Virus record (IMG/VR): IMGVR_UViG_3300009126_000404
Location: 62,001 to 126,000 of that record
Length of the DNA: 64,000 bases
From: a virus
Strand: one strand, 5' to 3'
The stretch's first letter is position 1, and each line of letters opens with the position of its first letter. The translations under genes and the position numbers were made by a program. This document shows, in pieces, positions 296 through 24,021 of this stretch. Below the pieces are notes generated by a model. That model had not been told where the DNA came from and did no database searches. It worked only from the letters and a program-made list of their open reading frames with translations.

Positions 296-871
296 ATGAA
301 ATATTTACTAGTTGCACTTGAAACAGAGGTGCCAAACATTGAATTACCAGATGATTATACATTAATGATTACAGGCGTAGGTAAAGTAAATGCTACTGTA
401 ATGGCTACTTTTGCAGCTCTCAACAAAGACTGCGAATGTATTATTAATTATGGAACAGCAGGAACTTTTAATCCTGATTTAGTTGGCAAACTATACAGAA
501 TTAGCACAGTCAAACAGCGAGATATGGATGCTCGTCCAACATCACCATTAGGAATTACACCATACGAAAACACAAAATTTAATGGTGACTTGCAAATTTA
601 CAAAGGAAGTAAATTTACATTAAGCACAGGCGATAACTTTGTAAAAGAAAAGCCTGAAATAAAAAGTGATTTCGTAGACATGGAAGGTTATGCTATCGCA
701 AAAACAGCAGGTATGTTTAACAAGCCATGTATAATGCTAAAATATGCAAGTGACTTAGCTGATGAACAATCGCCAGAAGAATGGCAAGCCAATCAAGCCA
801 AAGGAAAAGATATGTTTCTAGCATGGCTGTCAGATATGGAAAAGGAAATTCAAAAACTAAAAGATGAGTAA
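296..871 (+). CDS. mtnN: 5'-methylthioadenosine/S-adenosylhomocysteine nucleosidase (MTAN)
   Basis: Hydrolyses the N-glycosidic bond of SAH, methylthioadenosine and, in known MTANs, 5'-deoxyadenosine, releasing adenine. At 191 residues it is shorter than the bacterial enzyme (about 230) but keeps the hallmarks: an ETEV segment at residues 9-12 like the N-terminal acidic catalytic motif, GVGKVNAT at 27-34, STGDNF at 110-115, VDMEG at 127-131 (ribose-binding Met-Glu) and the SD pair at 152-153 matching the catalytic Asp. It follows a clipped gene directly and overlaps the next radical SAM gene by 8 nt. The context suggests it clears radical SAM by-products, which inhibit several radical SAM enzymes. 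The family call is strong; the role is inferred. Confidence 0.9.
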   Translation: MKYLLVALETEVPNIELPDDYTLMITGVGKVNATVMATFAALNKDCECIINYGTAGTFNPDLVGKLYRISTVKQRDMDARPTSPLGITPYENTKFNGDLQIYKGSKFTLSTGDNFVKEKPEIKSDFVDMEGYAIAKTAGMFNKPCIMLKYASDLADEQSPEEWQANQAKGKDMFLAWLSDMEKEIQKLKDE

Positions 872-2126
872 AAACGATTCAGGCTTTTGTGCATTACCAT
901 TTGTGCAATATAGCACCTATAACGGAGGCCGTTTTAGGCTATGTTGTATGGCTAAGGAACCTAAAGAACTTGTTAATCAAGAAGAACTAGGCATAGATGG
1001 TACATGGAATCATAATTATATAAAAGATGTAAGACGTAGAATGACTGCTGGTGAGAAACTACCAGAATGTATTGAATGTCATCATTTAGAACGTAACGAC
1101 ATAATGAGCTCACGCCAATGGGAAAACAAAGTGTGGGCAGATGTTATTGACGATGTAGTAGCCAAGGCATCCGTTAATGATTGGGAGATTGATCAACCCT
1201 TACAATTTGATTTTAGACTTGGTAATTTATGCAATTTGCAGTGTCAAATGTGTAACAAAGAAGCATCTCACTTAGTGAGTGTGGAACGTGCGGCAATGGT
1301 ACAAAGCGGACTCGGAGCGAACCATCCTGATTGGGACGGCATGATTGCAGACAAAAAAGAAGCATTACTTCAACCAGGAATAGAATGGGAAAGTTTCGAA
1401 AGAATGCTACCATATGCTCGTAAGATAAAGTTAATAGGTGGTGAACCAACAGTAGCGGCTGATATGTTCAAGTTGTTAGATATTGCTACTGAAACTGGAC
1501 ATGCAGATCATATAGAATTAAGTTTTTATACAAACATTACTAATATGCAAGACAAATGGCTTAACCAGTTAGCCAAGTTTGAAAAAGTAATTGTTAATTG
1601 CTCATTGGAAGGAATGGGAGATATGAATGACTATCTAAGACCCCCTTCCAAATGGGCTTCTGTTTGGAATAACTTTGATAAGTTAGTAAAGTTTTCTGAT
1701 ACTAAAGAAGGTAAACGTATAAAGCCTCGGGTTACTACAGTAAACCAATTAACTAATGCATTACATACAACAAAATTTTGGAAGTATATGCATGATTACC
1801 AAATGACTAGTAATAGAGGTATTGGAATGAGTTCCAATCAATTAGTGGAGCCAAACTATTATAGTATGGCATATGCTCCTGATTGGTTAAAATGGGAACA
1901 ACGTGAGCAAATTTTAGAATTCCTCGACAGTATTAAAGATAGTCCACATTTTAAGCAGTACGAAGAACCTCTTATGGAAATTGTTAATTTTAGTCTTGAT
2001 CCTAAACACAAGTATGATCCTAAAGTTATACAACAATATATTAAAGTTACAGAGAATTATGATAAACATAGGGGACACGATATTAACAAAGTGTCACCAG
2101 AATTTTCTAGACTTAAAAATATTTAA
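864..2126 (+). CDS. Radical SAM protein with N-terminal twitch-like domain
   Basis: 420 residues. An N-terminal cysteine domain (C9, C27-C28, C69-x2-C72) precedes the radical SAM core, whose 4Fe-4S motif CNLQCQMC supplies C123, C127 and C130; GGEP lies near residue 195. The order is the reverse of usual SPASM/twitch enzymes, where the auxiliary-cluster domain is C-terminal; I recall an NCBI family of 'twitch domain-containing radical SAM' proteins with this layout. The substrate is unknown. Start ATGAGTAA overlaps the stop of mtnN by 8 nt. The 3' end overlaps a convergent gene by 14 nt. A PEF motif near the C terminus recurs in relatives. Confidence 0.88.
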   Translation: MSKNDSGFCALPFVQYSTYNGGRFRLCCMAKEPKELVNQEELGIDGTWNHNYIKDVRRRMTAGEKLPECIECHHLERNDIMSSRQWENKVWADVIDDVVAKASVNDWEIDQPLQFDFRLGNLCNLQCQMCNKEASHLVSVERAAMVQSGLGANHPDWDGMIADKKEALLQPGIEWESFERMLPYARKIKLIGGEPTVAADMFKLLDIATETGHADHIELSFYTNITNMQDKWLNQLAKFEKVIVNCSLEGMGDMNDYLRPPSKWASVWNNFDKLVKFSDTKEGKRIKPRVTTVNQLTNALHTTKFWKYMHDYQMTSNRGIGMSSNQLVEPNYYSMAYAPDWLKWEQREQILEFLDSIKDSPHFKQYEEPLMEIVNFSLDPKHKYDPKVIQQYIKVTENYDKHRGHDINKVSPEFSRLKNI

Positions 2127-2943: not shown

Positions 2944-2964
2944 ATAACCTCCATTAAATCTTTA

Positions 2965-2972
2965 GATAAATA
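2965..2972 (+). promoter_or_regulatory. T4-late-like promoter box GATAAATA (+)
   Basis: GATAAATA lies 67 nt before the amidinotransferase ATG, in a 96-nt divergent gap. T4-type late promoters have only a TATAAATA -10 element. The mirrored box on the other strand supports a divergent late-promoter pair. Confidence 0.5.
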
Positions 2973-3039: not shown

Positions 3040-4125
3040 ATGACAAAAGCAGTTAACGTATGGAGTGAATTTCAACCACTTAAAAAAATAATACTTGGTG
3101 CACCGTTTCCACCTGAAACATTTGATTGGCATAAAGACGAGGAAACTCGTACTGTTATGCGTCAAATATTCAAAGAAACCGCAGAAGATATTGAAATACT
3201 TGCAAAATTATTAGAAGATAGAGGTATTGAGGTACTGCGTCCTAGTAATATTTTTACAATTACAGGTGAAGAACAAATACAATTACCTTGGATGCATTGT
3301 GGATTTCCTAACCACCCACTAATGCCACGCGATACATTAATGCCTTATGGTAACAGTATATTTGAATTATTTACAGGTAGCGATAATCGTTACTTTGAGA
3401 ATCTGGCTTACTATGATCATTGTTCGCAATGGTTTAAAGAAGGAGCCGATTGGGTTAGTATGCCAGGAGTATTAGTAGAGAGTGGTAAGAAATATGACCA
3501 CTTTGTTGCAAACGATCGAGTACTTTATCACGCGGCAAATATGATAAAGTGCGGACGCCATGTGTTATTCAGCCAGCCGTATGAGGGCGATAGCAAACGT
3601 GGTAGGGGTACGGAACTGGGCCGTGAATGGATCCAACGTGAAATAAAGTTGAGATATCCTAATACCGAATTTTTGGACATTCCAGTAGGAGGACACATCG
3701 ACGGCAAGATAGCTCTACTAAAACCTGGTGTACTAATGACTTGGAATAGAAATTGGGTACCTGATGAAATGAAGCATTGGCACATTATTGAAGTAGCAGA
3801 TGATTTTGATATGCCTGAAGACTTTCAACAAACTCGTAAACGTAGATTCCACAAAGACTATGTAAGCAAATGGTTAAGCCATTGGGTAGGTTGCCCAGAT
3901 GAAAGTGTGTTTGATGTTAACGTATTATCGTTAGATGAAAGCACTGTTATTTGTACAGGCAAAAATGAACAAGCATTTGCAGAAATGGAAGCACATGGAA
4001 TTGAACCAATATACTGGAACTTTAGACATCAGTACTTTTGGGACGGAGGCATACATTGCCTAACAAGCGATATTGTAAGAGAAGGCAATTGCAACGATTA
4101 CATAACTAACAAGAGATATTATTAA
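3040..4125 (+). CDS. Amidinotransferase-like pentein enzyme
   Basis: 361 residues, full length for glycine/inosamine-phosphate amidinotransferases. Family signatures are PRDT..YGNSIFE at 96-108, GGHIDGK with His219, and GGIHCLT with Cys340, matching the catalytic His and Cys. Known members move the amidino group of arginine to an amine (glycine or an aminocyclitol) through an amidino-cysteine intermediate. Acceptor specificity cannot be read here. The gene begins the second part of the radical SAM operon, after a divergent promoter region, and its TAATG is shared with the next gene. A role in decorating a small molecule, sugar or protein side chain with a guanidino group is inference. Confidence 0.88.
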   Translation: MTKAVNVWSEFQPLKKIILGAPFPPETFDWHKDEETRTVMRQIFKETAEDIEILAKLLEDRGIEVLRPSNIFTITGEEQIQLPWMHCGFPNHPLMPRDTLMPYGNSIFELFTGSDNRYFENLAYYDHCSQWFKEGADWVSMPGVLVESGKKYDHFVANDRVLYHAANMIKCGRHVLFSQPYEGDSKRGRGTELGREWIQREIKLRYPNTEFLDIPVGGHIDGKIALLKPGVLMTWNRNWVPDEMKHWHIIEVADDFDMPEDFQQTRKRRFHKDYVSKWLSHWVGCPDESVFDVNVLSLDESTVICTGKNEQAFAEMEAHGIEPIYWNFRHQYFWDGGIHCLTSDIVREGNCNDYITNKRYY

Positions 4126-5225
4126 TGAACTGGTATAGACAAATACATAAACTACAAATAGACGTAACTAGTCACTGTAATGCAAGATGTGGTGCATGTA
4201 TAAGAAATATAAGTGGCGGGAAAACAAGACCTGGATTAAAACTATCTCATTTTGATCTTGATGTATGGAAAAGAATGGCAAGAGAAGATACCAAAGGTTG
4301 GTGGGTTAGACAATTAACATTAAATGGAAATTGGGGCGACCCGATGATGCACCCAGATTTAGTAGAAATGCTAGAATTTTGGATAGATCAACATCCAGAA
4401 AGTTTTATTTCAATTGCAACAAATGGAAGTATGCGTGGAACTCAATTTTGGGCAGACCTTGCTAAAGTATTAAGACAAGGTTCTCATCATAAAATTGATT
4501 TTGCTGTAGACGGAATGGAAGATACTCATCATTTATATAGAAGAAGAACCGTGTTTTCTAAATTAACAGAAAATATTAAAAGTTTCACTGACGCAGGTGG
4601 AAACGCAAATGTACAAATGACTATGTTTGAACATAACAAACATCAAATTGAAGAAGTTAAAGAATTATCAAGGCAGTTAGGAGTACGAGAGTTTGTCGCA
4701 AGAAGAAGTCACAGTGCAGAAATGCAAATTATAGATGAGGGTGAAGACTATCATATAAGTGGATATTATCCATCAAATGATAAAAATTATATTGTTGGAA
4801 CCGATAAACCGCAAATGTCAGCACGGTTTGAAGAAAATGACCATCCAGTAAGTGATAATAGAGATAGAATATGGCTAAGGGCAAATGACATATTTGAAGA
4901 ATTAAACGAAAATCATATACCAAGCAAATGTCCATGGAAGGACGAAGGTGAAGTACAAATTGATCCATGGGGTACTGTATGGCCGTGTTGTCATATAAGT
5001 TTATATGGTGGCGATAGGGCATCAGAATCTATGTCTATAGCTAGTGACTTTAGCCAAGAAGCAGAAGATGATAATTTAATTAATAAAGGTCAGAGAGATA
5101 ATAACTTACATGATAATTCGTTAAAAGATATATTAAACGGCTATTGGTTTAATGATATATTAAACAATGCAATAGAAAATGCAGATTGGAAAGTATGTAG
5201 AAAGAATTGTGGGGTGTGTAAATAA
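4125..5225 (+). CDS. Radical SAM protein with C-terminal SPASM domain
   Basis: 366 residues. The core motif CNARCGAC gives C18, C22 and C25 right at the N terminus. The C-terminal third has the SPASM pattern (CPW, then WPCC, then CRKNCGVCK at the very end), which normally binds one or two auxiliary 4Fe-4S clusters. SPASM enzymes commonly modify peptides, tRNA or carbohydrates; the substrate here is unknown. Start and stop each share one base with neighbours (TAATG), so translation is probably coupled to the amidinotransferase and the next radical SAM gene. Confidence 0.9.
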   Translation: MNWYRQIHKLQIDVTSHCNARCGACIRNISGGKTRPGLKLSHFDLDVWKRMAREDTKGWWVRQLTLNGNWGDPMMHPDLVEMLEFWIDQHPESFISIATNGSMRGTQFWADLAKVLRQGSHHKIDFAVDGMEDTHHLYRRRTVFSKLTENIKSFTDAGGNANVQMTMFEHNKHQIEEVKELSRQLGVREFVARRSHSAEMQIIDEGEDYHISGYYPSNDKNYIVGTDKPQMSARFEENDHPVSDNRDRIWLRANDIFEELNENHIPSKCPWKDEGEVQIDPWGTVWPCCHISLYGGDRASESMSIASDFSQEAEDDNLINKGQRDNNLHDNSLKDILNGYWFNDILNNAIENADWKVCRKNCGVCK

Positions 5226-6475
5226 TGTACGTTAATCCAATGTTAAACGATACTCGCTATCCAACGTGCCTTGCACCTTGGAACGCATTGACTATTAAAT
5301 GGGGTGGTAATGTATTGCCGGACATTATCTATAATGGAAAATTTGGTAACATTACAAAACAAACATTACCTGAAATTTTGAATAGTGACGAAGCAGTAGC
5401 ATTAAGAAAGTCACACGCAGATAGAATAGTACCTAAGGCATGTTTGGCGTGTACTAAAAAAGAACAAAGCGGCAAAAGCCGTAGAATGTATTTTTGGGAT
5501 AAACTAGATGAAGATGTAAAACGTGGTAGTATTAAAAATACCGTAGACAGTAAGCCCGATATACGTTATTTAGACTTTACAATTAGTAATAAATGCAACC
5601 TAGCATGTATACATTGTAACCCATTTGTTAGCACAGGTTGGACCAAAGACGGAAAGAAATTAAACAAAGAAGCACCAGAATACTGGACTCAACAACAAAT
5701 TGGTTATCACGGTGTGGAAGATATGTCATTCCTTGATAACTTATTTGCAGACCCAGAATATTTTCGTAACTTACAGTGGGTAGCACTAAGAGGCGGCGAA
5801 CCTTTATATGATGAAAGTTGTAAAGCAATATTACAATGGTTTATTGATCAAGGACTAGCAAAAAACATTATGTTAGATATTAGTACAAATGCAACAGTAT
5901 TTGATGAAGATTTTCAAAAAATATTTAAACATTTTAAGCACATTGAATTACTTATTAGTATAGAAGCAGTTGACGAATTATATAGTGTAGTACGTGGTGG
6001 ACAATACACATTTGAAGATTTAGAAAGAAACATAGAAAAGTTTTACGAATACCCAAACATTGAAGTTGTGTTTGCCGTGACAGTTATGCTAACAAATGTA
6101 TTTGGGTTAGATAAAGTATGGAATTGGTTTAAAGAAAAACATGTACATAGAGCAAGTATAAGCATGAGCAACGTAGTAGTAAATCCTACATACCTCAATA
6201 TTGCATTCATGCCAGACGTATTAAAGTACATTATGTATGATAAATTACTACAGATTCCAGATCAAAGCATTTGGCCTAAAGGAAGTTATCATGCAGATGA
6301 AATACATTATCAAACAGGCATCCATGCTATTCGTGACGGATTACAAGTTGAAGTAGACGAAGCAGAACAAAAAAAGCAATGGAATTGGTTTGTTAAGTAT
6401 ACTGAAGACTTGGATAGATTACGTGGCACAGACACGTTTGCACTAATAAAGGAATTAAAATTATATAATGAATAA
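5225..6475 (+). CDS. Radical SAM protein, N-terminal twitch-like domain lacking the CC pair
   Basis: 416 residues. Core motif CNLACIHC supplies C124, C128 and C131, and RGGEP follows near residue 190. The N-terminal domain keeps C15 and the later CLAC (C73, C76), but the adjacent Cys-Cys pair seen in all nine relatives in this window is replaced by Asp-Ile at about residues 33-34. The auxiliary cluster may therefore be missing or bound differently. Shares TAATG with the preceding SPASM gene and overlaps the aminotransferase-like gene by 8 nt. Confidence 0.88.
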   Translation: MYVNPMLNDTRYPTCLAPWNALTIKWGGNVLPDIIYNGKFGNITKQTLPEILNSDEAVALRKSHADRIVPKACLACTKKEQSGKSRRMYFWDKLDEDVKRGSIKNTVDSKPDIRYLDFTISNKCNLACIHCNPFVSTGWTKDGKKLNKEAPEYWTQQQIGYHGVEDMSFLDNLFADPEYFRNLQWVALRGGEPLYDESCKAILQWFIDQGLAKNIMLDISTNATVFDEDFQKIFKHFKHIELLISIEAVDELYSVVRGGQYTFEDLERNIEKFYEYPNIEVVFAVTVMLTNVFGLDKVWNWFKEKHVHRASISMSNVVVNPTYLNIAFMPDVLKYIMYDKLLQIPDQSIWPKGSYHADEIHYQTGIHAIRDGLQVEVDEAEQKKQWNWFVKYTEDLDRLRGTDTFALIKELKLYNE

Positions 6476-7373
6476 CCCAGACTTTGGAAAAACAGGAAAC
6501 AGTGTATGGAACCAACCATATTTTGATTATTTAAATGAAACATTCTTTCCTAATATAGATATATCAACACTAGCTGATGAATCTAACATTATGTTGGATA
6601 GATATCAAGGATGGATTGAAAGCAGTAAACTAAACAAGTTTAATGGACTAGATGCATTTCCTTATCGTTTTGCAAGTGTAGGAACTACACAAACATTAGA
6701 TTGGTGGCATTACTATTGCTCAGTAAATAATCTTAACCTTAAAATGTTTAGAGGCGAGTACCCGTATAATAGAGATGTTTATATGCAAAAGAAAATAGAA
6801 TGGTCACATAGTATTGACGACATAGGATTAACACAAGGCGATGCAGTTTTAGTAAGTGTACCATTTAGTGGTACTGGGCGTGTTCCTGAAAGGTGGAACG
6901 ATATAATTAAAATATGTAATCAATTAAAAATTCCAGTACTAGTAGATTGTGCATGGTTTGGAACTTGTTTTGATATTGAAATAAATTTAGATGAACCGTG
7001 TATTAAAATGGTTGTGTTTAGTACTACAAAAGGATTAAGTTGTGGTAACTGGCGTAGTGGTATTGTATTCTCACGTATAAACGAAGGTAGTTTAGAAGTA
7101 CAAACAGATTGGAATCATGGAAATCATTTAGCGACAGCAATTGCTAACAGGCTTATGGAAAAATTTGGACCCGACACTATTCCTAAAAAATATTTAGATT
7201 CACATATTGCTGTATGTGAACATTATGGATTTGAAATGACAAACACAGTACATATTGCACTAGCACCAAAAGGACCTAAGTATGATGAGTTTCATAGAGA
7301 TGGAATATATAACAGAATTAATATTGCAAAAGCATTAAAACGTCACAAAACAAAAGGAAACTTTTATGAATAG
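6468..7373 (+). CDS. PLP-dependent aminotransferase-like protein (fold type I)
   Basis: 301 residues, short for the family (usually 350-400). Recognisable segments are VLVDCAWFG at 157-165, where D160 would pair with the pyridine nitrogen, and STTKGLSCGNWRSG at 185-198, where K188 would form the Schiff base. The N-terminal substrate arm and most of the small C-terminal domain look reduced, so activity is not certain. Overlaps both neighbours by 8 nt in the radical SAM operon. It could supply an amine group, for example to a sugar, but nothing in the sequence fixes the substrate. Confidence 0.7.
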   Translation: MNNPDFGKTGNSVWNQPYFDYLNETFFPNIDISTLADESNIMLDRYQGWIESSKLNKFNGLDAFPYRFASVGTTQTLDWWHYYCSVNNLNLKMFRGEYPYNRDVYMQKKIEWSHSIDDIGLTQGDAVLVSVPFSGTGRVPERWNDIIKICNQLKIPVLVDCAWFGTCFDIEINLDEPCIKMVVFSTTKGLSCGNWRSGIVFSRINEGSLEVQTDWNHGNHLATAIANRLMEKFGPDTIPKKYLDSHIAVCEHYGFEMTNTVHIALAPKGPKYDEFHRDGIYNRINIAKALKRHKTKGNFYE

Positions 7374-8505
7374 ACTACCTAGTAATGCCTGTGCTTATCC
7401 ATTTAAAGCAGAGATGCTTATGCATGGACAACCTTCTACACCTTGTTGTAGATTCCATAATAGGTTTCTTACAGATAGAGGGTTTGATGAGATACGTGAA
7501 ACAATGATGCGTAACGAATGGCACCCTGGTTGTTATAAATGTAAGTCAGATGAAGAAATGAAAGGTAGCAGTATGAGAACTGAAGCTGATGAATTCTTTG
7601 ATGACTTTACAGATACAATACGTTTAGAATATTTAGAAATAACAGTAGGTAGGCTTTGTAACTTGGCTTGTTTAAGTTGCGGAAGTGACTTTAGCCACAC
7701 CTGGGATAAAGATGAACTTGCATTAGGTATTAGTGATGAGGCAAAAATAAAGAAGTTAAAGGAAGTACAAGAATACGACTTAGATAATTTAGACTTAGGT
7801 AAATTAGAGCATGTTAAGTTTATTAAAGTAACAGGTGGAGAACCATTTTTGCATAGACAGTTTTTAAACTTAGTCGTTAGATTAGCGGACAGCGGACTAG
7901 CAGGACAGATCGACTTAGAAATATTTACAAACTGTACATGGTATCCAGCAAAACTAGAATTAGATGCATTGTTAAAATTTAAACGTATACAACTAAGTCC
8001 TAGCATTGATGGAGTTGAAAGTACAAACGACCTTCTACGTTACCCTAGTAAATGGAATAAAATTGAGACTACACTTGACAAGTGGATAGAGCTTAAAGAC
8101 GCTACAGGACGCTTAAAAATAGCTACAGCCACCACTATAAGCGTCATTAACGCTCCACAGATGCATGAGTTTATACATTGGGCAAGAGTGCATAAAGGAA
8201 TAGGAGTAATGCTACAAACAGTATATGAACCTCATTATTTAAGTGTTGAGCATTGGAGCAATGAATATAGAAGATTATTAAAACTAACAATAGATCAACA
8301 ATACATGGGTTTTAATAAAAATAGCAATAAGTTTGATGCTAGTTATAAACTATTAAACAATTTGTGTTCTGTTGTAACTAATGCACAGAATGATAAAACA
8401 GAAGAATACATAATAGAGCTAAAAAGAATATTAGCACATCGTGGACAAGATATAAGCATGGCTCCTAAGTTTGCTAATATATTAAAGTATATGAATTATG
8501 ATTAA
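7366..8505 (+). CDS. Radical SAM protein with N-terminal twitch-like domain
   Basis: 379 residues. N-terminal cysteines C9, C27-C28, C56 and C59; core motif CNLACLSC with C98, C102 and C105; GGEP follows about 60 residues later. The whole N-terminal domain is compact. The ATGAATAG start overlaps the aminotransferase-like stop by 8 nt and the end overlaps the next radical SAM gene by 8 nt. No substrate can be inferred. Confidence 0.88.
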   Translation: MNRLPSNACAYPFKAEMLMHGQPSTPCCRFHNRFLTDRGFDEIRETMMRNEWHPGCYKCKSDEEMKGSSMRTEADEFFDDFTDTIRLEYLEITVGRLCNLACLSCGSDFSHTWDKDELALGISDEAKIKKLKEVQEYDLDNLDLGKLEHVKFIKVTGGEPFLHRQFLNLVVRLADSGLAGQIDLEIFTNCTWYPAKLELDALLKFKRIQLSPSIDGVESTNDLLRYPSKWNKIETTLDKWIELKDATGRLKIATATTISVINAPQMHEFIHWARVHKGIGVMLQTVYEPHYLSVEHWSNEYRRLLKLTIDQQYMGFNKNSNKFDASYKLLNNLCSVVTNAQNDKTEEYIIELKRILAHRGQDISMAPKFANILKYMNYD

Positions 8506-9727
8506 TAAAGAAAAACTAAAACAAAGTAAAACATTTTGTATGTTACCATTTATGCATATCTACGGAACTGCAGGTGGAAACATAGTGCCTTGCTGTGAGG
8601 CGCAGGAGATACCATTGAATAAGAAGAATGAAAGTGCTCTGGATAGTTGGAATAATGAAAACTACCGAGAGCTAAGACGTGCTCTGGCATCGGACGAAAG
8701 ACCAGAACGCTGTAACGTGTGCTGGCACAACGAGGATAGTGGCATTGTGAGCAATCGTCAACAATGGGAAGATGACAATTGGGATGAATTTGCCAATGTC
8801 ATAGAAGTTAATGATGACTATAGTGTTAACAATAGCCCTAAGTGGATTGAACTCAAAGTTAGTAACTTCTGTAACCTAAAGTGCATTATGTGTAGCACAC
8901 ACAGCTCTTACAAACGTGTTAAGGATTTAGATATAATAACAAAGTATCAAGAAGCTGGGCACGAAACTAGATTACTAAGGCCAACAACACTATTTGACAG
9001 TTTAAATGAATGGCCCGAACTATGGGACCATGTTCATACATTACAATTTACAGGTGGTGAGCCTATTATTAATAAAGAGCATTATGACTTATTAGATTCT
9101 ATACCTCAGCAATTAAAGAAAAATATTAAATTACGTTATGCTAGTAATTTAAGTTATATAAAATTTAAACAATATGATTTAGTTAAAATTTGGAATGAAT
9201 TTAAAAGTGTAAATATTAAAGTAAGTATGGACGGTATTAAAGGTGTGTATAACTTTATACGCCAAGATGGTGATTGGGATAATGTATATGCTAATATGCT
9301 GGTCCTTAACGCCGAACCAACAATAGACGTAGCGGCTGGTATTACAATACAAGCACATAATATATTTCACTTACCAGAGTTTTATACATTTTGGAAAAAC
9401 AGTGAAGTTGATTTGAGATTTATTACTGCTAACATTTTGCAAACACCTAGATACTTAGCACCAAGTGTCTGGCCAGCAGAATACAGAGAAGCAATTATTA
9501 ATAAGTTAAAAAGTGCATTAAATGAACATCCAGAAATGCAAAAGTTTATAACGTATATGGAAAACAACCAGCCTAACATACGTGACTATGCAAAGATGAG
9601 AAAATATAATAGAGATTTAGAAGAAAGATACCCAAAGGATATAACATTAAAATCAATGGTAAATGACCATTTGGGTATGCAACCAGAAGATATGAAAGCA
9701 GTACATGAAAGGCTAACAAATGATTAA
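8498..9727 (+). CDS. Radical SAM protein with N-terminal twitch-like domain
   Basis: 409 residues. N-terminal domain cysteines C14, C32-C33, C72 and C75, then the radical SAM motif CNLKCIMC at C125, C129 and C132, and FTGGEP. Closest in layout to the genes at 864 and 20052. Both ends overlap neighbours by 8 nt; the next gene is a small ABM-domain protein, suggesting joint translation. Confidence 0.88.
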   Translation: MINKEKLKQSKTFCMLPFMHIYGTAGGNIVPCCEAQEIPLNKKNESALDSWNNENYRELRRALASDERPERCNVCWHNEDSGIVSNRQQWEDDNWDEFANVIEVNDDYSVNNSPKWIELKVSNFCNLKCIMCSTHSSYKRVKDLDIITKYQEAGHETRLLRPTTLFDSLNEWPELWDHVHTLQFTGGEPIINKEHYDLLDSIPQQLKKNIKLRYASNLSYIKFKQYDLVKIWNEFKSVNIKVSMDGIKGVYNFIRQDGDWDNVYANMLVLNAEPTIDVAAGITIQAHNIFHLPEFYTFWKNSEVDLRFITANILQTPRYLAPSVWPAEYREAIINKLKSALNEHPEMQKFITYMENNQPNIRDYAKMRKYNRDLEERYPKDITLKSMVNDHLGMQPEDMKAVHERLTND

Positions 9728-10001
9728 AGTATTTTTTATAGCAAAGATTAAAAATTTTAACGATGACTATTATGATTATAGTAAACGGGTCAGAGAAAAA
9801 GCAGAAACACTTCCTGGCTTCATTGATATAATATCTGAAGAAAAAGATGATGTTGAAATAACAATTAGCTCATGGAAAACTAAAGAAGATGTTGAAGCCT
9901 GGAGAAAAGATCCTTTACACATGGAAGCAAAAGCAAGAGCACATGAGTGGTATTATTGGGTTAAAGGAATACATGTAGAGGCAGTAGATGAAAAAAGGTG
10001 A
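9720..10001 (+). CDS. Antibiotic biosynthesis monooxygenase (ABM) domain protein
   Basis: 93 residues, the size of a single ABM/dimeric alpha-beta barrel domain. The pattern LPGFIDI..., then SSWKTKEDVEAWRKDP and a final HMEAKARAHEWYYWV is characteristic. Family members are cofactor-free monooxygenases or heme-degrading enzymes, and some have no known activity. Its place between radical SAM and unknown paralogue genes suggests a redox tailoring step, but heme-iron release is an alternative that would fit the iron theme of this phage. Confidence 0.75.
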   Translation: MIKVFFIAKIKNFNDDYYDYSKRVREKAETLPGFIDIISEEKDDVEITISSWKTKEDVEAWRKDPLHMEAKARAHEWYYWVKGIHVEAVDEKR

Positions 10002-15678: not shown

Positions 15679-16813
15679 AACATATTGCAACGAACCATGG
15701 AAAACAATTCACTATGATAATATTGGATCATTGGGACCTTGTTGTACATACAGAGGCAAAAGAGATAAAAGTCTAGAAAGCGTACAAGATTATTTAAACA
15801 GTGATTGGTTAAAAGAACTTAAACGTAAAATGCTTAATAACGAAAGAGATGAAGGTTGCTATAACTGTTGGGTTAAAGAAGATAAAGGTGAAGATAGTCA
15901 ACGTTTACAACAAAATAGAAAAGACGGCGTATTAACTGAAACAGACATAAAAAGAGTTTGGTTAAGTTTTGGAAACATATGCAATAAAAATTGCAATATA
16001 TGTAGGCCAGCTAGAAGTAGTATAATAGCAAAAGAATATAAAAAATTAGGCAGTGATCATGAGATATATTCTATAGATAAAGATCCTGCAATATTACAAA
16101 AAGATTTTAGTGGTATATATTTGGACAAATGGGAAAATTATATAGATGCATTAGACAATGCTCACACAATAAACTTAGATGGCGGCGAACCATTTTTTAC
16201 AAAGCAGTGTACAACTATATTAGAGACTCTTATTAAAAAAGGATCTACTAATAAGAAAATAAAATTCTCAACAAACGGAAGTGCAAATGAAAAACATTAC
16301 AAACTACTGAAACAATTTAAACAAGTAGATTTTGGTCTTAGCATAGATGGAATAAGAGAATTATACAGTTTAGTAAGAAGCCCACATCATTGGAATTGGT
16401 GGGAAAAACAACATAGACTAATGGAACAACAAACTAACCTAAGTTGGACTTATCTTGCAGTAGTGCATTGTTTTAACATACATCAACTACCAGAAATGAT
16501 AAGATATTTTATTAAAAATAATCCAAATACAGATTCAAGGTTTCATTTTACAACTATTGTATCAAGACCATATTTAGGTACACATATTGTTCCTAATTAT
16601 ATAATAGAACAAACAATAAAAGAACTCGACTTATTGGAAGGCCAATTACATAAAAAAGAACAAGTAAATATTAATAATGTTAGGCACCACTTAGTGTATA
16701 GTATATTAAATAAATCAACGGAAGATGAGATTAATTTTAAAAAATTTGTAGACATATTTGGTCCTATTAAAAAGTTAGATTATCAAAGTTATTTGCCATG
16801 GAGTATTAAATGA
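15671..16813 (+). CDS. Radical SAM protein with N-terminal twitch-like domain
   Basis: 380 residues from the ATG at 15671 (ATGTCTAA, 8-nt overlap, GGAG upstream), preferred to an in-frame ATG at 15647. N-terminal cysteines C6, C24-C25, C63 and C66; core CNKNCNIC at C104, C108 and C111; DGGEP follows. The motif spacing is the same as in siblings although the sequence around it is quite diverged. The end overlaps the SDR-like gene by ATGA. Confidence 0.87.
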   Translation: MSKTYCNEPWKTIHYDNIGSLGPCCTYRGKRDKSLESVQDYLNSDWLKELKRKMLNNERDEGCYNCWVKEDKGEDSQRLQQNRKDGVLTETDIKRVWLSFGNICNKNCNICRPARSSIIAKEYKKLGSDHEIYSIDKDPAILQKDFSGIYLDKWENYIDALDNAHTINLDGGEPFFTKQCTTILETLIKKGSTNKKIKFSTNGSANEKHYKLLKQFKQVDFGLSIDGIRELYSLVRSPHHWNWWEKQHRLMEQQTNLSWTYLAVVHCFNIHQLPEMIRYFIKNNPNTDSRFHFTTIVSRPYLGTHIVPNYIIEQTIKELDLLEGQLHKKEQVNINNVRHHLVYSILNKSTEDEINFKKFVDIFGPIKKLDYQSYLPWSIK

Positions 16814-17376
16814 AAAGCATAATATGTACAGGAAATCCAGAATTTGGCGTAGCAAGTGCAATAGCTGAACGTTGGCCAGAAACAGAATTTGTTAGTAGAA
16901 CTAATTGGGATTACGATTTAACACAAGATAGTTATAAAAAGAAACTAGCAGAAAAGGCTCTTAATTATGACGTCTTTATTAACGGATCTGCACTATGGCA
17001 GTACCATCAAACTTTGCTACTAGATGTAGTCTATAAAACCGCCCAAACCAATCGCAAAAGACTACATATAGTATGTTTAGGTAGTACAACAGACAGAGCT
17101 ACTAAAGGCTCTGATTGGCATTATCAGCAAGAAAAGAAGGCTTTACGTAGTACAAGCAATGCATTAGGCTTAAAAAGCATATGGGCTGGTGGTCCTAAGG
17201 TTAGTTATATTACATTTGGTACATTAGAAAACAATGCACACAAACACCCTGGTCGAAAAGTAATGAAATTAAACGATGCTGTAGATATGATTGAATATGT
17301 AATTAATATGCCATATCATTTAAATGTAAATGAACTTAGCATTGACCCTATACAAACGGAGTGGCCAAATGAATAA
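16810..17376 (+). CDS. Short-chain dehydrogenase/reductase-like protein
   Basis: 188 residues, short for an SDR (about 250). A start resembling the Rossmann beta1-alpha1 turn (CTGNPEFGVASAIAE, 6-20), a GST segment at 91-93 and Y105-x3-K109 resemble the SDR Ser-Tyr-Lys arrangement. The glycine-rich loop is not canonical (GNPEFG rather than GxxxGxG), so nucleotide binding is unproven. It lies between a radical SAM gene and an SGNH-like gene with 4- and 8-nt overlaps. An oxidoreductase step on a sugar or small molecule would fit, but this is inference. Confidence 0.55.
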   Translation: MKSIICTGNPEFGVASAIAERWPETEFVSRTNWDYDLTQDSYKKKLAEKALNYDVFINGSALWQYHQTLLLDVVYKTAQTNRKRLHIVCLGSTTDRATKGSDWHYQQEKKALRSTSNALGLKSIWAGGPKVSYITFGTLENNAHKHPGRKVMKLNDAVDMIEYVINMPYHLNVNELSIDPIQTEWPNE

Positions 17377-18196
17377 AATAGGAATATTTGGTGATAGTTT
17401 TGCTGTACCTGATGTAAGGGCGAAATGGGATGGAAATATTGTTAAGATTTCTAATGTTAATTGGATGGAATTAATAGGAGCACAAACATATGCCTATGGC
17501 GGTACTGATGTAGCATATAGTTTTTTAGAATTTGAAAAGCATCATAGTAAATATGATCAAGTTATTTTTGTATTAACTAATCCAGGCAGCAGAATAACTC
17601 TCAAACATCGCGACTTTATACTAAATTCATGTGATCAAGAGTATAGCATTAGAGCCATAGAAAGATTAAAGAAATCAGATGACTATGATCCTATACTTAA
17701 TCATATACATTTATCTTTAATTGAATGGCACAAAATGCAAACACTTGACGCTTTTGCAGAAAGAGAAACTTTATTTTGTAATTTAATGGTAGCACGAATA
17801 AAACAATTAAGACCAGATGTTAAATTTATACAAGCATTTGCTTGGAATAATATTGAACACATTGGCGACAATAAATATATTCCTTCTACTAGTTGTTTAG
17901 TTGACATTACCCATTACGAAAATAAAATATTTAATTGGGAACATCCTACATCAGAAAATAGTGGATGGTATTGCTCTGATAAAAAAGGGGATATTAGAAT
18001 TGGGCATATAACATGTGAGTCACATGTAATTTTAGCAGAACTAATTAAAAAATGGCTAAAAACTGATAAAATGTTTTTTGACTTTGATATAAAAGAATTT
18101 CATAATATTAAACCTGACGAGAAGCTATACAATACGGCTTTTCATAAAAGTTATGAAGACTGGTTAGCATATTGTAAGGAGCATAAAAATGAGTAA
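17369..18196 (+). CDS. SGNH/GDSL hydrolase-like protein
   Basis: 275 residues from the ATG at 17369, chosen over an in-frame ATG at 17330 because ATGAATAA gives the recurrent 8-nt overlap. GIFGDSFA places the block-I Gly-Asp-Ser at residues 8-10. A late RIGHITCESH segment could hold the block-V His. Family members are esterases and acyl or acetyl hydrolases, often on cell-surface polysaccharides. No signal peptide, so action would be cytoplasmic. Confidence 0.6.
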   Translation: MNKIGIFGDSFAVPDVRAKWDGNIVKISNVNWMELIGAQTYAYGGTDVAYSFLEFEKHHSKYDQVIFVLTNPGSRITLKHRDFILNSCDQEYSIRAIERLKKSDDYDPILNHIHLSLIEWHKMQTLDAFAERETLFCNLMVARIKQLRPDVKFIQAFAWNNIEHIGDNKYIPSTSCLVDITHYENKIFNWEHPTSENSGWYCSDKKGDIRIGHITCESHVILAELIKKWLKTDKMFFDFDIKEFHNIKPDEKLYNTAFHKSYEDWLAYCKEHKNE

Positions 18197-19343
18197 ATTT
18201 TGTTATATGCCTTGGAATGCAATCACGTTAACCGCTAATGGTGATATTAAACCATGTTGCCAATTTAGTAATAAAGGACGTATGCCTAATACTGAGCATA
18301 ATACAATAATGGAAAATTTTAATAGTGAACGTATGCAAGGATTACGCAAAGATTTCCTACAAGGTATAGAAAACAATGCATGTAATAGTTGTTGGGAGAG
18401 AGAAGATTTAGTAGGCCAAAGTAGACGCTTATGGTTTAACAAAAAGTTTCTCAATAATGAACCTAAGCCAACTACACATGATGTACCAAACCCTACATTC
18501 TATCAAGCAGATATTAACTTGTCAAATGTATGTAATTTAAAATGTCGTATGTGTGGAAGTTGGGCAAGTAACAGTTGGTTTGAAGAAGAATTAGCGTTAG
18601 CCAAAATAGACAAGCGTTATGAAAAGAATACACGTCCTGTTCCATTACAACAATATGAATTAGAAGATTTACGTAATATGCTACCTCATTTAAAGAAAGT
18701 AAAACGTATAGACTTTAAGGGTGGCGAACCAATGATGGCAAAACATCATAATCAATTTTTGGAATGGCTAATTGAAGAAGATATGACTGACGTAGAATTA
18801 TTCTACACTACAAATGGTACAGTACAAAATCCTAAGATTTTAAAATTATTAAGCAACTTTAAACGTGTCAGCATATGTTTCAGTATAGAAGGCACAGGTG
18901 ATTTATATAGTTATATAAGAGGTGGAAAATATACTATAGAAGATTTTGAAAACACACTAGCAGTATATGATAAATTAGAAAACGTACAAATAATGTTTAA
19001 TGTAACATTGCAAAATTATAACGTTTTCAACTTACCAGACTTGCATTTTTTCTTACATGATTTGGAAGATAAATATGATAGAGTAAGTGCAAATAACAGT
19101 TTCACTACTATCTGTAACAAACCAGCATATTTAAGTCCAATGAATTTACCCGATGATTTAAGAGATAAAGCAATTGGAAGATTATCTTTGTTTAGTGATT
19201 TTGAAAAGTTAGTTGAAAGTATGAAACAAAGAACATTTAATCCAGAGCTATGGGAAGTGTTTATTAACTTTACAAATGATTTGGATAAAATGCGAGGAGA
19301 TAGTGTAGTGAAAGCAGTACCACAACTAAAGGAACATTTTTAA
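18189..19343 (+). CDS. Radical SAM protein with N-terminal twitch-like domain
   Basis: 384 residues. N-terminal cysteines C5, C23-C24, C65 and C68; core CNLKCRMC at C115, C119 and C122; KGGEP follows. ATGAGTAA overlaps the previous stop by 8 nt, and TAATG joins it to the next, SPASM-less radical SAM gene. Confidence 0.88.
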   Translation: MSKFCYMPWNAITLTANGDIKPCCQFSNKGRMPNTEHNTIMENFNSERMQGLRKDFLQGIENNACNSCWEREDLVGQSRRLWFNKKFLNNEPKPTTHDVPNPTFYQADINLSNVCNLKCRMCGSWASNSWFEEELALAKIDKRYEKNTRPVPLQQYELEDLRNMLPHLKKVKRIDFKGGEPMMAKHHNQFLEWLIEEDMTDVELFYTTNGTVQNPKILKLLSNFKRVSICFSIEGTGDLYSYIRGGKYTIEDFENTLAVYDKLENVQIMFNVTLQNYNVFNLPDLHFFLHDLEDKYDRVSANNSFTTICNKPAYLSPMNLPDDLRDKAIGRLSLFSDFEKLVESMKQRTFNPELWEVFINFTNDLDKMRGDSVVKAVPQLKEHF

Positions 19344-20059
19344 TGTTAGTAGGTATAGAAGATAATTTTGCACCCAAAGACGAACTACTTCGTGTAGAAT
19401 GGAACTTGGGTAAACGTTGTAACTATAACTGTAGTTATTGTGGTAATGAATTACACAATAAAACCAGCGACCATATGAGTTGGGAAGTATACACAGGCAC
19501 AATAGATAAAATTGTGGAAGCATCTAATGGTAAGAAAATTAAAATAAGTTTTACTGGTGGTGAACCTTTTGTACATCCTAAGTTTATTGATATGCTAAAG
19601 TACGCTAAAGAAAATGGAGTGTATCGTTGCAGTGTAACTACTAATGGAAGTCCGCCTCCTAAAATATATAAGAAAGCATTAAAATATTTACATTATGTTA
19701 TAATCAGCTATCATTTCGAATTTGCATCTCACGATAAAGTTATTAATAATATTACAGGTATGTGGGAAGAAATACAAGAATACAGAGCCAAAGATCAATA
19801 CAAAGGTATGCACGTACACATTATGGCATTACCTGGGCACATGAAAGAATGGAAAGAAATTATAAACGAATTAAAAGAATGTGGAGTAGAATATACAGTT
19901 AGAAAAATTAGGCCACGTGTTAATGAAGACCGCACAGGATGGAATAAACCATATGCTGACGGTATGCTAGGGCAACATCCCAAGCATGAAGAAACTGAAA
20001 AGTTTGCTGGACAATATTATAGTGCAGAAGAAGAAAAATGGTTAAACGAAAATGTCTGA
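19343..20059 (+). CDS. Radical SAM core protein missing its SPASM domain (split gene, part 1)
   Basis: 238 residues. CNYNCSYC gives C26, C30 and C33 and FTGGEP follows, but no auxiliary-cluster cysteines remain at the C terminus. Its order of motifs follows the intact SPASM enzyme at 22852-24021. The tail (YYSAEEEKWLNE) lines up with the point just before that enzyme's SPASM domain, and the missing domain is encoded by the small gene at 21229-21558. A complete twitch-type radical SAM gene lies between the two parts. Confidence 0.85.
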   Translation: MLVGIEDNFAPKDELLRVEWNLGKRCNYNCSYCGNELHNKTSDHMSWEVYTGTIDKIVEASNGKKIKISFTGGEPFVHPKFIDMLKYAKENGVYRCSVTTNGSPPPKIYKKALKYLHYVIISYHFEFASHDKVINNITGMWEEIQEYRAKDQYKGMHVHIMALPGHMKEWKEIINELKECGVEYTVRKIRPRVNEDRTGWNKPYADGMLGQHPKHEETEKFAGQYYSAEEEKWLNENV

Positions 20060-21242
20060 AGATAAAGTAAGAGAGTGGTTAATGAAACCCGGTAATAATT
20101 TTTGTGCGTTGCCATTTACACATATGGCAATAGAAGCCAATGGCGATATAAGACCTTGTTGTATGGGCGATGAATTTGATTTAAACATTAGAAATAAAAC
20201 AATACAACAAGTATACAACGACCCAATAAGACTACAATTTGTAGACAGTTTTAAACGCAACGAACAACATCCTGCATGTCATCAATGTTGGAAAGATCCA
20301 GAAATAAGAACTACTTTTTCAACATCATCTGTTGCTATGGAAGTAACAAAACAAGCAATGAATGGAATAACACCTAAGCATGAATTAAAATGGTTAGAAA
20401 TTAAACCAGGAAATAGATGTAACTTAAAATGTAGAATATGTGGAGTACATAATAGTAGTACCTGGGCAAAAGATACTGCGGCAATGGAAGAGCCCAAAGT
20501 AAAGTTTAAAAACAGCGAGTCATTTAAATATACACAATCGTGTGATTGGATCGATGATCCAAAATTTTGGAATGATGTAAATCAATTAGAATCATTAGAG
20601 TACTTACATTTTATGGGTGGCGAGCCGTTTATGGTTCCTGAGCATTTTCAATTAATAGAACGTTTAGTAAACGATCCTGACATTGATACTAGTAATATTA
20701 TAATAGGATACAATACAAACGGAACATATTTTCCTAGCAAAGAAAACTTTGAACTATACAAGAATTTTAAGCAAGTAAAATTTGCAATAAGCATAGATGA
20801 TATTAATGAGAGATTTAACTATCAGCGTAAATTAGCTGAGTGGGAAGAAGTAAAAAATAATATTAAGAATTTTCAAAAATTAGATAAAAGCCAATATCTT
20901 GCACATTTGGATCCTACTATAAGTATATTTAATATATTTTATTTAAATGAGATTTGTACAGAATTTAATAATTTAGGATATTATGGTTTTACTAACCAAC
21001 GACATTTTGTAAATAGTGGTCCTGATTGTATTCATACGCTACCTCAATATATAAAAGACATTATTACAGAAAAGTATAAAGACAGTGATAACATATGGAT
21101 TAAACGAGCCGTAAACTATATGAATAGTCAAAAATCAGATTATAGCTTATGGGAGGATTTTAAAATAAAGACTAATAAATTAGATTTATTAAGAAAAGAA
21201 AACTTCCAACATACATTTAAGGAATTTTATGAGCAATTTTAA
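20052..21242 (+). CDS. Radical SAM protein with N-terminal twitch-like domain, inserted in a split gene
   Basis: 396 residues. N-terminal cysteines C18, C36-C37, C76 and C79; core CNLKCRIC at C123, C127 and C130; MGGEP follows. It sits between the core and SPASM parts of another radical SAM enzyme, with an 8-nt overlap on the left and a 14-nt overlap on the right. It is intact, so the insertion preserved all three reading frames. Confidence 0.88.
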   Translation: MSEDKVREWLMKPGNNFCALPFTHMAIEANGDIRPCCMGDEFDLNIRNKTIQQVYNDPIRLQFVDSFKRNEQHPACHQCWKDPEIRTTFSTSSVAMEVTKQAMNGITPKHELKWLEIKPGNRCNLKCRICGVHNSSTWAKDTAAMEEPKVKFKNSESFKYTQSCDWIDDPKFWNDVNQLESLEYLHFMGGEPFMVPEHFQLIERLVNDPDIDTSNIIIGYNTNGTYFPSKENFELYKNFKQVKFAISIDDINERFNYQRKLAEWEEVKNNIKNFQKLDKSQYLAHLDPTISIFNIFYLNEICTEFNNLGYYGFTNQRHFVNSGPDCIHTLPQYIKDIITEKYKDSDNIWIKRAVNYMNSQKSDYSLWEDFKIKTNKLDLLRKENFQHTFKEFYEQF

Positions 21243-21558
21243 AAATATTATTGTACACTATAAAGATGGTACAAGCAAAGAAGATAACGTAAACAGTGTC
21301 ATGGCACGTGATGAAAATGACTTCCGTGGTTGGGAATGTTGGGCAGGTGTACAAAATATTACTATCAGTAATACAGGTGATGTGTTTAGAGCTATATGTA
21401 AAGTAGGAGGCAAACTAGGAAACATTTATGATGGATTCGAAATGCCAAAAGAAACTATTATATGTAATAAGCCTAGATGCATATGTGCGGCAGATGTGCA
21501 ACTATCAAAAGCATTGCCAGATCATGTACATAGATTAAGAGTAGGTAAAGATGGATAA
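21229..21558 (+). CDS. Stand-alone SPASM domain (split gene, part 2)
   Basis: 109 residues with C37, C57, C79, C84 and C86. The RGWECWAG...GKLGNIYDGF...C-x4-CIC pattern matches the C-terminal SPASM region of the neighbouring intact enzyme (KGWECSSG...QPLGNIETGF...). It has no radical SAM core. Most likely it associates with the protein at 19343-20059 to rebuild a two-chain SPASM enzyme; it could also serve as an independent Fe-S or carrier protein. Start ATGAGCAA overlaps the previous gene by 14 nt. Confidence 0.8.
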   Translation: MSNFKNIIVHYKDGTSKEDNVNSVMARDENDFRGWECWAGVQNITISNTGDVFRAICKVGGKLGNIYDGFEMPKETIICNKPRCICAADVQLSKALPDHVHRLRVGKDG

Positions 21559-22855
21559 TTATAAACAATTTTATGATCACGCAGTAGGTAAGTTAAAAGG
21601 TTTACCAGTAGATAAAAATACATTTTGTCCATTACCGTTTGTTCATGTAAGCACTACACCACATGGTGAAGTAAAACTATGCTGTAGATCTCGCCCACCA
21701 AAAGGAGGAAAAAATGTGAATAATCCTAATGTCAAAGATGATAACTTTGATCTTAAAGATTATTGGCATAGTGAGTATATGAATGAAATACGAGATGATC
21801 TTATATTAGGAAATAAACCACAACAATGTCAGAATTGTTGGAAGATGGAAGATATGGATATTGTTAGTCTACGATTAAACAAGCTCACTGATTTAATGGG
21901 CAATAAAACTTATATAAAAAATATAAAACATTACTTAAAGCATAGAGAAGTTGAATTTAAAATTCCTCTTATTGAACTTAAATTAAGTAATGTATGTAAT
22001 TTTAAATGTCGTATGTGCTGGCCAAAAGATAGTTCAAAATGGATGCAAGATTGGGATAAATTAAAAAAATTCTACGATAAAAAAGATCAAACCTTTATTG
22101 AAACAATTATAGATGCAAACGACTTAAGAACAACTAGAGTAATGAATTTATATGAAAAAGATGAACAATTTGTTGGACACTTAGTTGAGCTCATGGAACA
22201 TATTGAAGAACTTGAATTTGCTGGTGGCGAACCTCTAATGGATCCAATCCATTATCGTATATTAGATAGCATACCTCATCCTGAAAATGTAACTTTAAAA
22301 TATAGTACAAATCTAAGCATTATGAAAATGGGTAAACATAGTATAATAGACTTATGGAAGAAATTTAAAAGTATTAAACTCACTATTAGCATAGACGGAT
22401 ATAAGGAACTTAATACTAAAATAAGAAGAGGTTCTGATTGGGACCTGTTAAAAAAGAACATTAAACTTGTAAAAGAGAATTTAGACAATTTAGACGTTAT
22501 TAAAGGAACCACGTGTATAAGTGGAATGAATGCACAAGAATTAGGTAAAACAGCAGAAGCAATTGAGTTTGAATTAGGCATATTATGGCATACAAGCCGT
22601 ATGCAAAGCCCGGATTTCCTACATGCAAATGTTCTGAGCCCTATACAGCTGAAAGAAGGAATAGACGGCTTAAAACGGGTATTTGATAGCTTAAACACGG
22701 CGAAAAACCGCCAATCTGCTGGACGCTTTATGTTAGAAGCTCACTTAAATGGAGCTATTAGTTGGCTACAATCATGCATAGATAATAACAAACATACAGA
22801 GAAATATGAGCAATTTTTAAAGTTTAATAACACGATAGAGGATATGGATAAATGA
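21551..22855 (+). CDS. Radical SAM protein with N-terminal twitch-like domain
   Basis: 434 residues, the longest of its type here. N-terminal cysteines C26, C44-C45, C93 and C96; core CNFKCRMC at C149, C153 and C156; AGGEP follows. Extra length lies in the N-terminal leader and in the linker before the core. 8-nt overlap upstream, ATGA overlap downstream. Confidence 0.88.
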   Translation: MDNYKQFYDHAVGKLKGLPVDKNTFCPLPFVHVSTTPHGEVKLCCRSRPPKGGKNVNNPNVKDDNFDLKDYWHSEYMNEIRDDLILGNKPQQCQNCWKMEDMDIVSLRLNKLTDLMGNKTYIKNIKHYLKHREVEFKIPLIELKLSNVCNFKCRMCWPKDSSKWMQDWDKLKKFYDKKDQTFIETIIDANDLRTTRVMNLYEKDEQFVGHLVELMEHIEELEFAGGEPLMDPIHYRILDSIPHPENVTLKYSTNLSIMKMGKHSIIDLWKKFKSIKLTISIDGYKELNTKIRRGSDWDLLKKNIKLVKENLDNLDVIKGTTCISGMNAQELGKTAEAIEFELGILWHTSRMQSPDFLHANVLSPIQLKEGIDGLKRVFDSLNTAKNRQSAGRFMLEAHLNGAISWLQSCIDNNKHTEKYEQFLKFNNTIEDMDK

Positions 22856-24021
22856 CAGATAAAGACTTAAAATGGAGTGAATACGATTTTACCGCTACAC
22901 CGTATGATGATATTGTACGAGTAGGGCAACGTACAATGCTGTACCGTGATTTATTTACAGTTAGTTGGTTGTTAGGTAGATTCTGTAATTATAAATGTTC
23001 TTATTGTTGGCCTTATGCTAGAAGTGATAGGAAAGACCATAGACCAACTAAACTTAATTTAAAAACTATTGATGAAATAAAAAGACAAGCACGTGAACGT
23101 GGTTTTAATAGTTTTCATTTTAGTTTAAGTGGAGGTGAGCCAACGTTCCATCCAGGTTATCTTGATATGCTTAAACATCTAAGCGATGATGTACACAATA
23201 CAAATTATACAAGTGTGCATATGACTTCAAACTGTAGCCGTAACATGAAATGGTTCCAAACATATGTAGAATATGCGGCTAAGTTTCACCGTGCAAGTAT
23301 TACAGCAAGTTTACATACAGAGCATGTTAATACACCTAAAAAAATGCAAGACTTTGCAGACAAGTTAATATTTTGCCAAGAACATGACGTGCAGGTTACA
23401 ATTAATCAAGTTATGGTTCCAAATTGGTTTGATAGAGATTGGGAAAATGCATTGTTCTTTCATAATCAAGGAATCAATGTAACACTTAAACCTCAATCAG
23501 ATCCTACTGCAAGTAAAATTGTAGATGGGTATACTGATGAGATGTTAAAAAGATTACATAACGGAATGCCACAACGTGGATACACAGAAGTTAAAGCAAA
23601 ACAAACACAATTAGTAAAACGTCCTAAGCCAGAATTTGAAATTGACTATGATGATGAATATAGAAAACAAAGTGCTAATGTTCCTTGGCATATGCAAATA
23701 GAATTTAGAGATAGCAAAGGTAAACCTTGGTATATGGACCAAGCAGAACGATTCAATGCTTTTAATTTTAATAACTTTAAAGGTTGGGAATGTAGTTCTG
23801 GTTATCGTAGTATAATTATTAGAGAACCCGATGGAAGTGTAAAACGTTCATACAGTTGTATGGATCAACCTTTAGGGAATATTGAAACAGGATTTAAATT
23901 GTTTGATGGCCCTACTAAATGTATAACTGGTGCTTGTGTTTCAAGTGCTGATAGTAAAATACCAAAAAGAGCACCTGGAACTAAAATGGGATTGTGGCCG
24001 GGAGATAAATCATTTGGATAA
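22852..24021 (+). CDS. Radical SAM protein with C-terminal SPASM domain
   Basis: 389 residues. Core CNYKCSYC at C45, C49 and C52, LSGGEP near residue 95, then a SPASM domain over about the last 80 residues (GWEC, SYSC, then a final C-x4-C pair). It is the intact relative of the split pair at 19343-20059 and 21229-21558. ATGA overlap with the preceding radical SAM gene. Confidence 0.9.
   Translation: MTDKDLKWSEYDFTATPYDDIVRVGQRTMLYRDLFTVSWLLGRFCNYKCSYCWPYARSDRKDHRPTKLNLKTIDEIKRQARERGFNSFHFSLSGGEPTFHPGYLDMLKHLSDDVHNTNYTSVHMTSNCSRNMKWFQTYVEYAAKFHRASITASLHTEHVNTPKKMQDFADKLIFCQEHDVQVTINQVMVPNWFDRDWENALFFHNQGINVTLKPQSDPTASKIVDGYTDEMLKRLHNGMPQRGYTEVKAKQTQLVKRPKPEFEIDYDDEYRKQSANVPWHMQIEFRDSKGKPWYMDQAERFNAFNFNNFKGWECSSGYRSIIIREPDGSVKRSYSCMDQPLGNIETGFKLFDGPTKCITGACVSSADSKIPKRAPGTKMGLWPGDKSFG

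Follow-up and report, generated by a model that had tools for sequence, protein, structure and literature searches.

Phages rich in radical SAM (rSAM) proteins are already known. The Campylobacter phages CP220 and CPt10 were reported in 2010 to encode 11-12 rSAM proteins, and five of the rSAM genes form an interchangeable module with an amidinotransferase (PMC2853527). A 183-kb marine T4-like genome described in 2017, TARA_ERS488813_N000010, carries 12 rSAM genes together with a gene for Fe-S assembly (PMC5332604), and in pelagimyophages rSAM cassettes lie with glycosyltransferases inside a hypervariable host-recognition island (PMC7029224).

The locus studied here is a tightly packed operon of ~23 kb in a large aquatic phage, in which 13 rSAM genes are combined with helper enzymes. 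It lies in an IMG/VR virus record of 183,842 bases (~184 kb), of which positions 62001-126000 were analysed as one window of 64,000 nucleotides; coordinates below are window positions unless marked as record positions. The likeness to CP220, an amidinotransferase among rSAM genes in a phage, is one of architecture and does not imply orthology. The CP220 module is much smaller and is followed by two nucleotide-sugar-transferase-like genes, and its amidinotransferase is 24% identical to the one found here (AMT), with the catalytic Asp kept; a search of the phage collection with the T6 protein of the present operon gave no CP220 match. In the part of the report that covers the TARA T4-like genomes no pathway is described, and the present island adds gene order, orthology and a bacterial counterpart. 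The first-pass annotation stated that no characterised phage pathway has this composition, which holds once these uncharacterised precedents (PMC2853527; PMC5332604) are acknowledged. What is new is the size of the array, its stable orthology, the widespread R2 gene, the support genes and the bacterial counterpart.

Organization of the operon

Between record positions 62296 and 86021 all genes are on the plus strand except OXa (2113-2943, minus). Neighbouring genes overlap by 1-47 nt, the sole exception being the junction that follows OXa, and since overlaps occur at nearly every junction the genes look translationally coupled. The cluster start had been placed at 864, which is too late: a nucleosidase gene at 296 belongs to the same run, and the island extends past the window edge to two further N-twitch rSAM genes upstream (the N-twitch gene T0 is at record 59640-61061).

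The radical SAM proteins

The CxxxCxxC motif is present in 13 ORFs within 864-24021, all with the radical-SAM fold, and a PF04055 profile search of the whole record found 25 domains, 13 of them in these genes, in agreement with the number first claimed. In its DNA form the motif appears 25 times across the window, ~5 times the chance expectation of 4.9 ± 2.4, and none of 100 shuffles reached 25. The PF04055 domains at 25 loci, with the CxxxCxxC cysteines and the GGE kept across paralogues (below), place these proteins in the radical SAM superfamily.

Ten of the 13 proteins exceed the curated cut-off of 170 bits for the NCBIfam model NF033640 (N_Twi_rSAM, N-terminal twitch domain), a sequence family whose model name gives no function. 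These range from 194 to 385 bits: T1 (864-2126; 287.6 bits), T2 (5225-6475; 253.4), T3 (7366-8505; 210.5), T4 (8498-9727; 313.9), T5 (13407-14468; 194), T6 (14437-15678, GTG start; 385.4), T7 (15647-16813; 218.9), T8 (18189-19343; 300.1), T9 (20052-21242; 265.2) and T10 (21551-22855; 298.5). The remaining three fall below the cut-off: S1 (4125-5225; 55.6 bits), whose cysteines include a C-terminal SPASM-like set; R1 (19343-20059; 40.6 bits; PF04055 7e-18), a bare rSAM core with no auxiliary domain; and R2 (22852-24021; 48.3 bits), which has a C-terminal Cys domain.

In an alignment of 17 paralogues the rSAM cysteines C137, C141 and C144 and the GGE at G209-E211 are invariant, as are three auxiliary-domain cysteines, C19, C89 and C92. 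The T proteins have the Cys sets of the twitch domain except for the CC pair of T2, which is replaced; T2 falls in an orthologue clade that includes a bacterium. The ten N-terminal auxiliary-domain proteins of the first-pass annotation are thus recovered, T2 lacking this pair. The N-terminal 70 residues of the T-protein profile align with the twitch domain of BtrN (E 8e-7) and its core with SkfB, anSME, BlsE and MoaA. A PDB sequence search with T6 alone retrieved nothing useful; the AF2 model of T6 (pLDDT 92.6) has viperin, BlsE, SkfB and anSME as its nearest solved folds in the PDB, and SuiB is also among those closest to the T family. Domain homology and Cys ligands together place the T proteins among the predicted twitch/SPASM auxiliary-cluster enzymes. 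PHROGs and the PMC literature on twitch-domain rSAM proteins in phages, on AG-345-D19 and on Bdellovibrio rSAM proteins supplied no function.

The small gene tw (21229-21558) encodes a stand-alone Cys-rich domain, 79-94% conserved in relatives. Over 96 aa it shares 29% identity with the R2 C-terminus (E 2e-9), which makes it the Cys-rich C-terminal domain of an R2-type enzyme in detached form. Since R1 is a bare core and tw matches the R2 C-terminus, R1 and tw are probably a two-piece version of R2, with tw as the partner of R1. A second split rSAM lies at record 37551-38490, with the core in one ORF and a Cys-rich part in a small ORF after it; the two are found together again in relatives and in the Bdellovibrionia cluster described below.

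Helper enzymes

The first in-window gene of the overlapping run encodes a PNP_UDP_1 nucleosidase (296-871; PF01048, 8e-15) of the MTA/SAH/5'-deoxyadenosine type. NCBIfam nucleosidase and MTA/SAH nucleosidase models match it below their cut-offs, the catalytic-type motifs of MTA/SAH nucleosidases (E9, VDMEG and (S/T)DxAD) are kept across 12 orthologues, and the gene holds the same position in relatives. Nucleosidases of the MTA/SAH type can clear 5'-deoxyadenosine.

The amidinotransferase-fold protein AMT (3040-4125) groups with HsvA, StrB1 and SxtG by PDB matches (5wpi, 1e-25; 1bwd, 6e-19) and profile alignment. It retains Cys340, His219, Asp98 and Asp221. The position of StrB1 Asp179, which we take to be part of the pentein-fold Cys-His-Asp catalytic triad, is His164 in AMT and His in all 14 relatives, and because the Asp of the known triad is replaced in this way, amidino transfer by AMT is uncertain. 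PLP (6468-7373) is a fold-type I PLP enzyme, aminotransferase-like (PF00155, 2.7e-5, over cut-off), with the lysine of its STTK motif invariant in the alignment; a PDB search with the PLP profile retrieved nothing useful.

Two proteins resemble Fe/2OG enzymes. AspH (12668-13438) belongs to the Asp/Asn beta-hydroxylase family (PF05118, 5.8e-13), while OXa is a possible Fe/2OG-type oxygenase judged by eye from HxD/H-like motifs; it is kept in 13 loci and had no significant match in the Pfam scan. The U1 gene (9988-11274) and its paralogue U2 (11274-12677) share invariant columns at 19-22% identity in their alignment, and both are predicted to be glycosyltransferase-methyltransferase fusions. In the AF2 model of U1 (pLDDT 78) a domain resembling GT-A glycosyltransferases precedes one that resembles a methyltransferase. 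Foldseek comparison with the PDB gave a GT8 enzyme (3tzt, probability 0.99) and a PBCV-1 glycosyltransferase (2p73, 0.95) at E about 0.005-0.01, with no match reaching E 0.001; the viral library gave a better score, GT25 at E 3e-4. A PDB search with the profile of the glycosyltransferase-like protein g15295 retrieved nothing useful.

The gene inventory first given stands; three of its helper labels are weak. The small ABM/DUF3291-like protein (9720-10001) matches PF11695 (1.7e-4) and PF03992 (4.7e-3) below both cut-offs. The SDR-like protein (16810-17376), 75-89% conserved in relatives, has a YxxxK-like motif recognised by eye and no significant Pfam match, and the variable SGNH-like gene (17330-18196) has a GDSF motif, also seen by eye, and no Pfam or PDB match.

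Support genes in the rest of the record

The record encodes what rSAM enzymes consume. A complete MetK (SAM synthetase; record 41236-42333) scores over its curated cut-off, and a full-length IscS cysteine desulfurase (record 178200-179414, minus; 746 bits, cut-off 548) adjoins an rSAM gene and the gene of a ferredoxin-NADP-reductase-like (FNR-like) flavoprotein, which is below its curated cut-off; to these is added the MTA/SAH-type nucleosidase heading the operon. IscS occurs in two of 18 records, the source record included (one of 17 related records), and MetK in seven of the 17 related records, which are fragmentary, so these genes are not established as a fixed part of the system. A UDP-sugar dehydrogenase and an NAD-epimerase are also encoded outside the operon.

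Other genes were noted in passing. Transporter genes comprise parts of a glycine-betaine ABC system (OpuAC and a permease) and a tricarboxylate transporter, TctA (record 724-2603, 9198-10637). The genes for GTP cyclohydrolase I and a PTPS/QueD-like protein (record 30708-31385, 36978-37523) may belong to deazaguanine or folate metabolism, and at record 44007-45452 a tryptophan-halogenase-like flavoprotein carries a fused WYL_2 domain. The phage's DNA polymerase shares 48% identity with its counterpart in jumbo phage Atu_ph07; a Gp23 capsid search of the record gave no match, nor did any control, and is therefore uninformative.

Conservation among phages

Because the N-twitch alignment was too divergent to scan the collection with, AMT and R2 served as queries. 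AMT was found at 24 viral loci, every one in a record with 4-21 rSAM domains. R2, the most widespread island gene, is 77-87% conserved in related phages and occurs in at least 570 viral contigs; 62 sampled R2 loci had a median of seven rSAM-motif ORFs within about 21 kb. The collection of isolated and deposited phage records gave no R2 match.

A survey of gene order in related contigs and a phylogeny of the twitch-type proteins, both put forward with the first-pass annotation, were carried out. Nearer relatives keep the order PNP-T1-OXa-AMT-S1-T2-PLP-T3-T4-U1-U2-AspH-T5-T6-SDR-T8-R1-T9-tw-T10-R2, with insertions, losses and swaps, and order is conserved in eight relatives with extended downstream sequence. 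A more distant phage group retains T0-AMT-T2-PLP-T6-R2. In a distant phage group a B12-binding rSAM protein is encoded directly 3' of R2 (L034:17726-19579). The T paralogues are mutually 20-33% identical, and in the tree they group by orthologue across genomes, with 19 label changes against 67.8 in shuffles. Values of dN/dS are 0.03-0.21 for most genes, T9 reaching 0.38 in one pair with low dS. Most array members are thus matched by a separate orthologue in other viral contigs and are under purifying selection.

A chromosomal counterpart in Bdellovibrionota

A Bdellovibrionia MAG, from a relative of the predator Bdellovibrio, contains a cluster with 20 reciprocal best hits (G040 C1:745-775 kb) on a contig of 916,837 bases. 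Identities are 47% for AMT, 37% for PLP, 45% each for T8 and T6, and 59% for tw. Ordinary bacterial genes, identified by reading the sequence, flank the cluster: carboxylase genes at one end, sigma-factor and primase genes at the other. Gene order and strands differ from those of the phage, and R2 is on another contig. Because of this chromosomal counterpart the rSAM set is not phage-only. The same cluster in a host chromosome with an ordinary role had been named beforehand as evidence that would count against the reading of the island; the chromosomal cluster exists, and no known role came with it.

Among 291 sampled Bdellovibrionota genomes an AMT of this kind is present in one and R2 relatives in 17, the latter co-occurring with T0, an S-type rSAM and a glycosyltransferase-like gene. 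Fifteen MAGs searched via their R2 loci gave 4-37 N_Twi_rSAM matches. GT2 genes, a carbamoyltransferase and a SIS-domain isomerase are found in the neighbourhood of the bacterial relatives, and in bacterial loci, as in the phage, the AspH gene adjoins the U2 homologue. One Bdellovibrionota array (L159, L160) adjoins the carbamoyltransferase, the SIS-domain isomerase and repeated QueC-like PP-loop proteins.

In the N-twitch tree the bacterial proteins are sisters of individual phage genes. In the R2 tree the phage sequences form one supported clade apart from Bdellovibrionota, with five MAG rows inside it. Loci from Gammaproteobacteria, Rickettsiales, Chloroflexi and Acidimicrobiaceae MAGs, being nested in the phage R2 clade, were rejected as cellular evidence; the 'Rickettsiales' locus L053 is probably mis-binned phage DNA, its length, range and match equalling those of the IMG/VR contig L149.

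Proposed function

The target is not readable directly from sequence, as the first-pass annotation judged. It named a surface glycan, a peptide and the phage's own nucleotides, and we infer that the glycan is the best supported of the three, a peptide less likely and phage nucleotides least. It is quite possible, if short of probable, that the operon is an assembly line for an unusual nitrogen-rich sugar or cyclitol destined for a glycan. The rSAM proteins would then be distinct ancient enzymes, not copies of one enzyme, each performing one C-H step, so that the array would functionalise a polar scaffold sequentially. PLP and AMT would add nitrogen; hydroxylation by the Fe/2OG oxygenases, O-methylation and glycosyl transfer by the U1/U2 fusions would complete and attach the product, an amino or guanidino, hydroxylated, O-methylated sugar or cyclitol. 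The phage would itself supply SAM (MetK), Fe-S sulfur (IscS) and probably electrons (FNR-like protein), and would remove the by-product with the nucleosidase. The product would most likely decorate the envelope polysaccharide of the infected cell or a virion glycan, and this may change recognition by competing phages or the host.

BtrN of the butirosin pathway oxidises an aminocyclitol. BtrN and StrB1 of streptomycin synthesis, which acts on an inosamine phosphate, are twitch rSAM and amidinotransferase homologues with aminocyclitol substrates; the twitch domain is C-terminal in BtrN and N-terminal in the T proteins. A glycan is favoured because GT2 genes lie near the bacterial relatives and because of the host-recognition islands of pelagimyophages (PMC7029224). 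Against it, the glycosyltransferase reading of U1 and U2 rests on predicted structure, and the solved relatives of the T family include the peptide enzymes SkfB, anSME and SuiB. No sugar-nucleotide synthase, flippase, polymerase or dehydroquinate-synthase-like gene was identified in the cluster, and the non-rSAM cluster genes had no Pfam match to a 2-deoxy-scyllo-inosose/inositol-type precursor synthase.

The operon might instead make a small diffusible metabolite, aminoglycoside- or guanidino-like, such as a compound or signal against competitors. StrB1, HsvA and SxtG all come from small-molecule pathways, a carbamoyltransferase stands beside the bacterial array and the record has the tryptophan-halogenase-like gene, yet neither an exporter nor a resistance gene could be identified within the cluster, a secreted product would be of little gain to a lytic phage, and glycosyltransferase-like proteins recur, so we consider this unlikely.

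Modification of a virion or host protein, or of a RiPP, with hydroxylation by AspH and glycosylation by U1/U2, would explain why peptide enzymes are among the closest solved folds and why AspH remains beside the U2 homologue in bacteria, since AspH-family enzymes can hydroxylate Asp/Asn in proteins. We give it a similarly small chance. RiPP maturation in particular was rejected: the PqqD-type recognition domain (PF05402) is absent from the record, control genomes having given matches, and the near-continuous gene overlap leaves no room for a precursor ORF.

Hypermodification of phage DNA or nucleotides appears very improbable. The GTP cyclohydrolase I and PTPS/QueD-like genes that could serve it are outside the rSAM operon, and base modification against restriction makes little sense for the chromosomal counterpart in Bdellovibrionia. 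If a selfish or neutral gene had recently been duplicated in tandem and formed no pathway, many same-family paralogues would likewise stand side by side; this reading was rejected given their divergence, their orthologue clades across phages and bacteria, the low dN/dS and the conserved order.

Returning to the glycan reading, we suggest with less assurance a wider role, in which a swappable rSAM line for glycans or aminosugars is common to many uncultured aquatic phages and Bdellovibrio relatives, the terminal R2 and variable arrays serving to diversify the surfaces of infected cells. If so, phages would hold one of the densest known radical-enzyme pathways, shared with bacteria and provided with its own SAM and Fe-S supply, and it would offer a route to new C-H chemistry. 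R2, T6, AMT and PLP form small expressible sets, with which the hoarding of rSAM genes by Campylobacter and marine phages becomes testable, and the Bdellovibrionota counterparts provide a possible cellular system.
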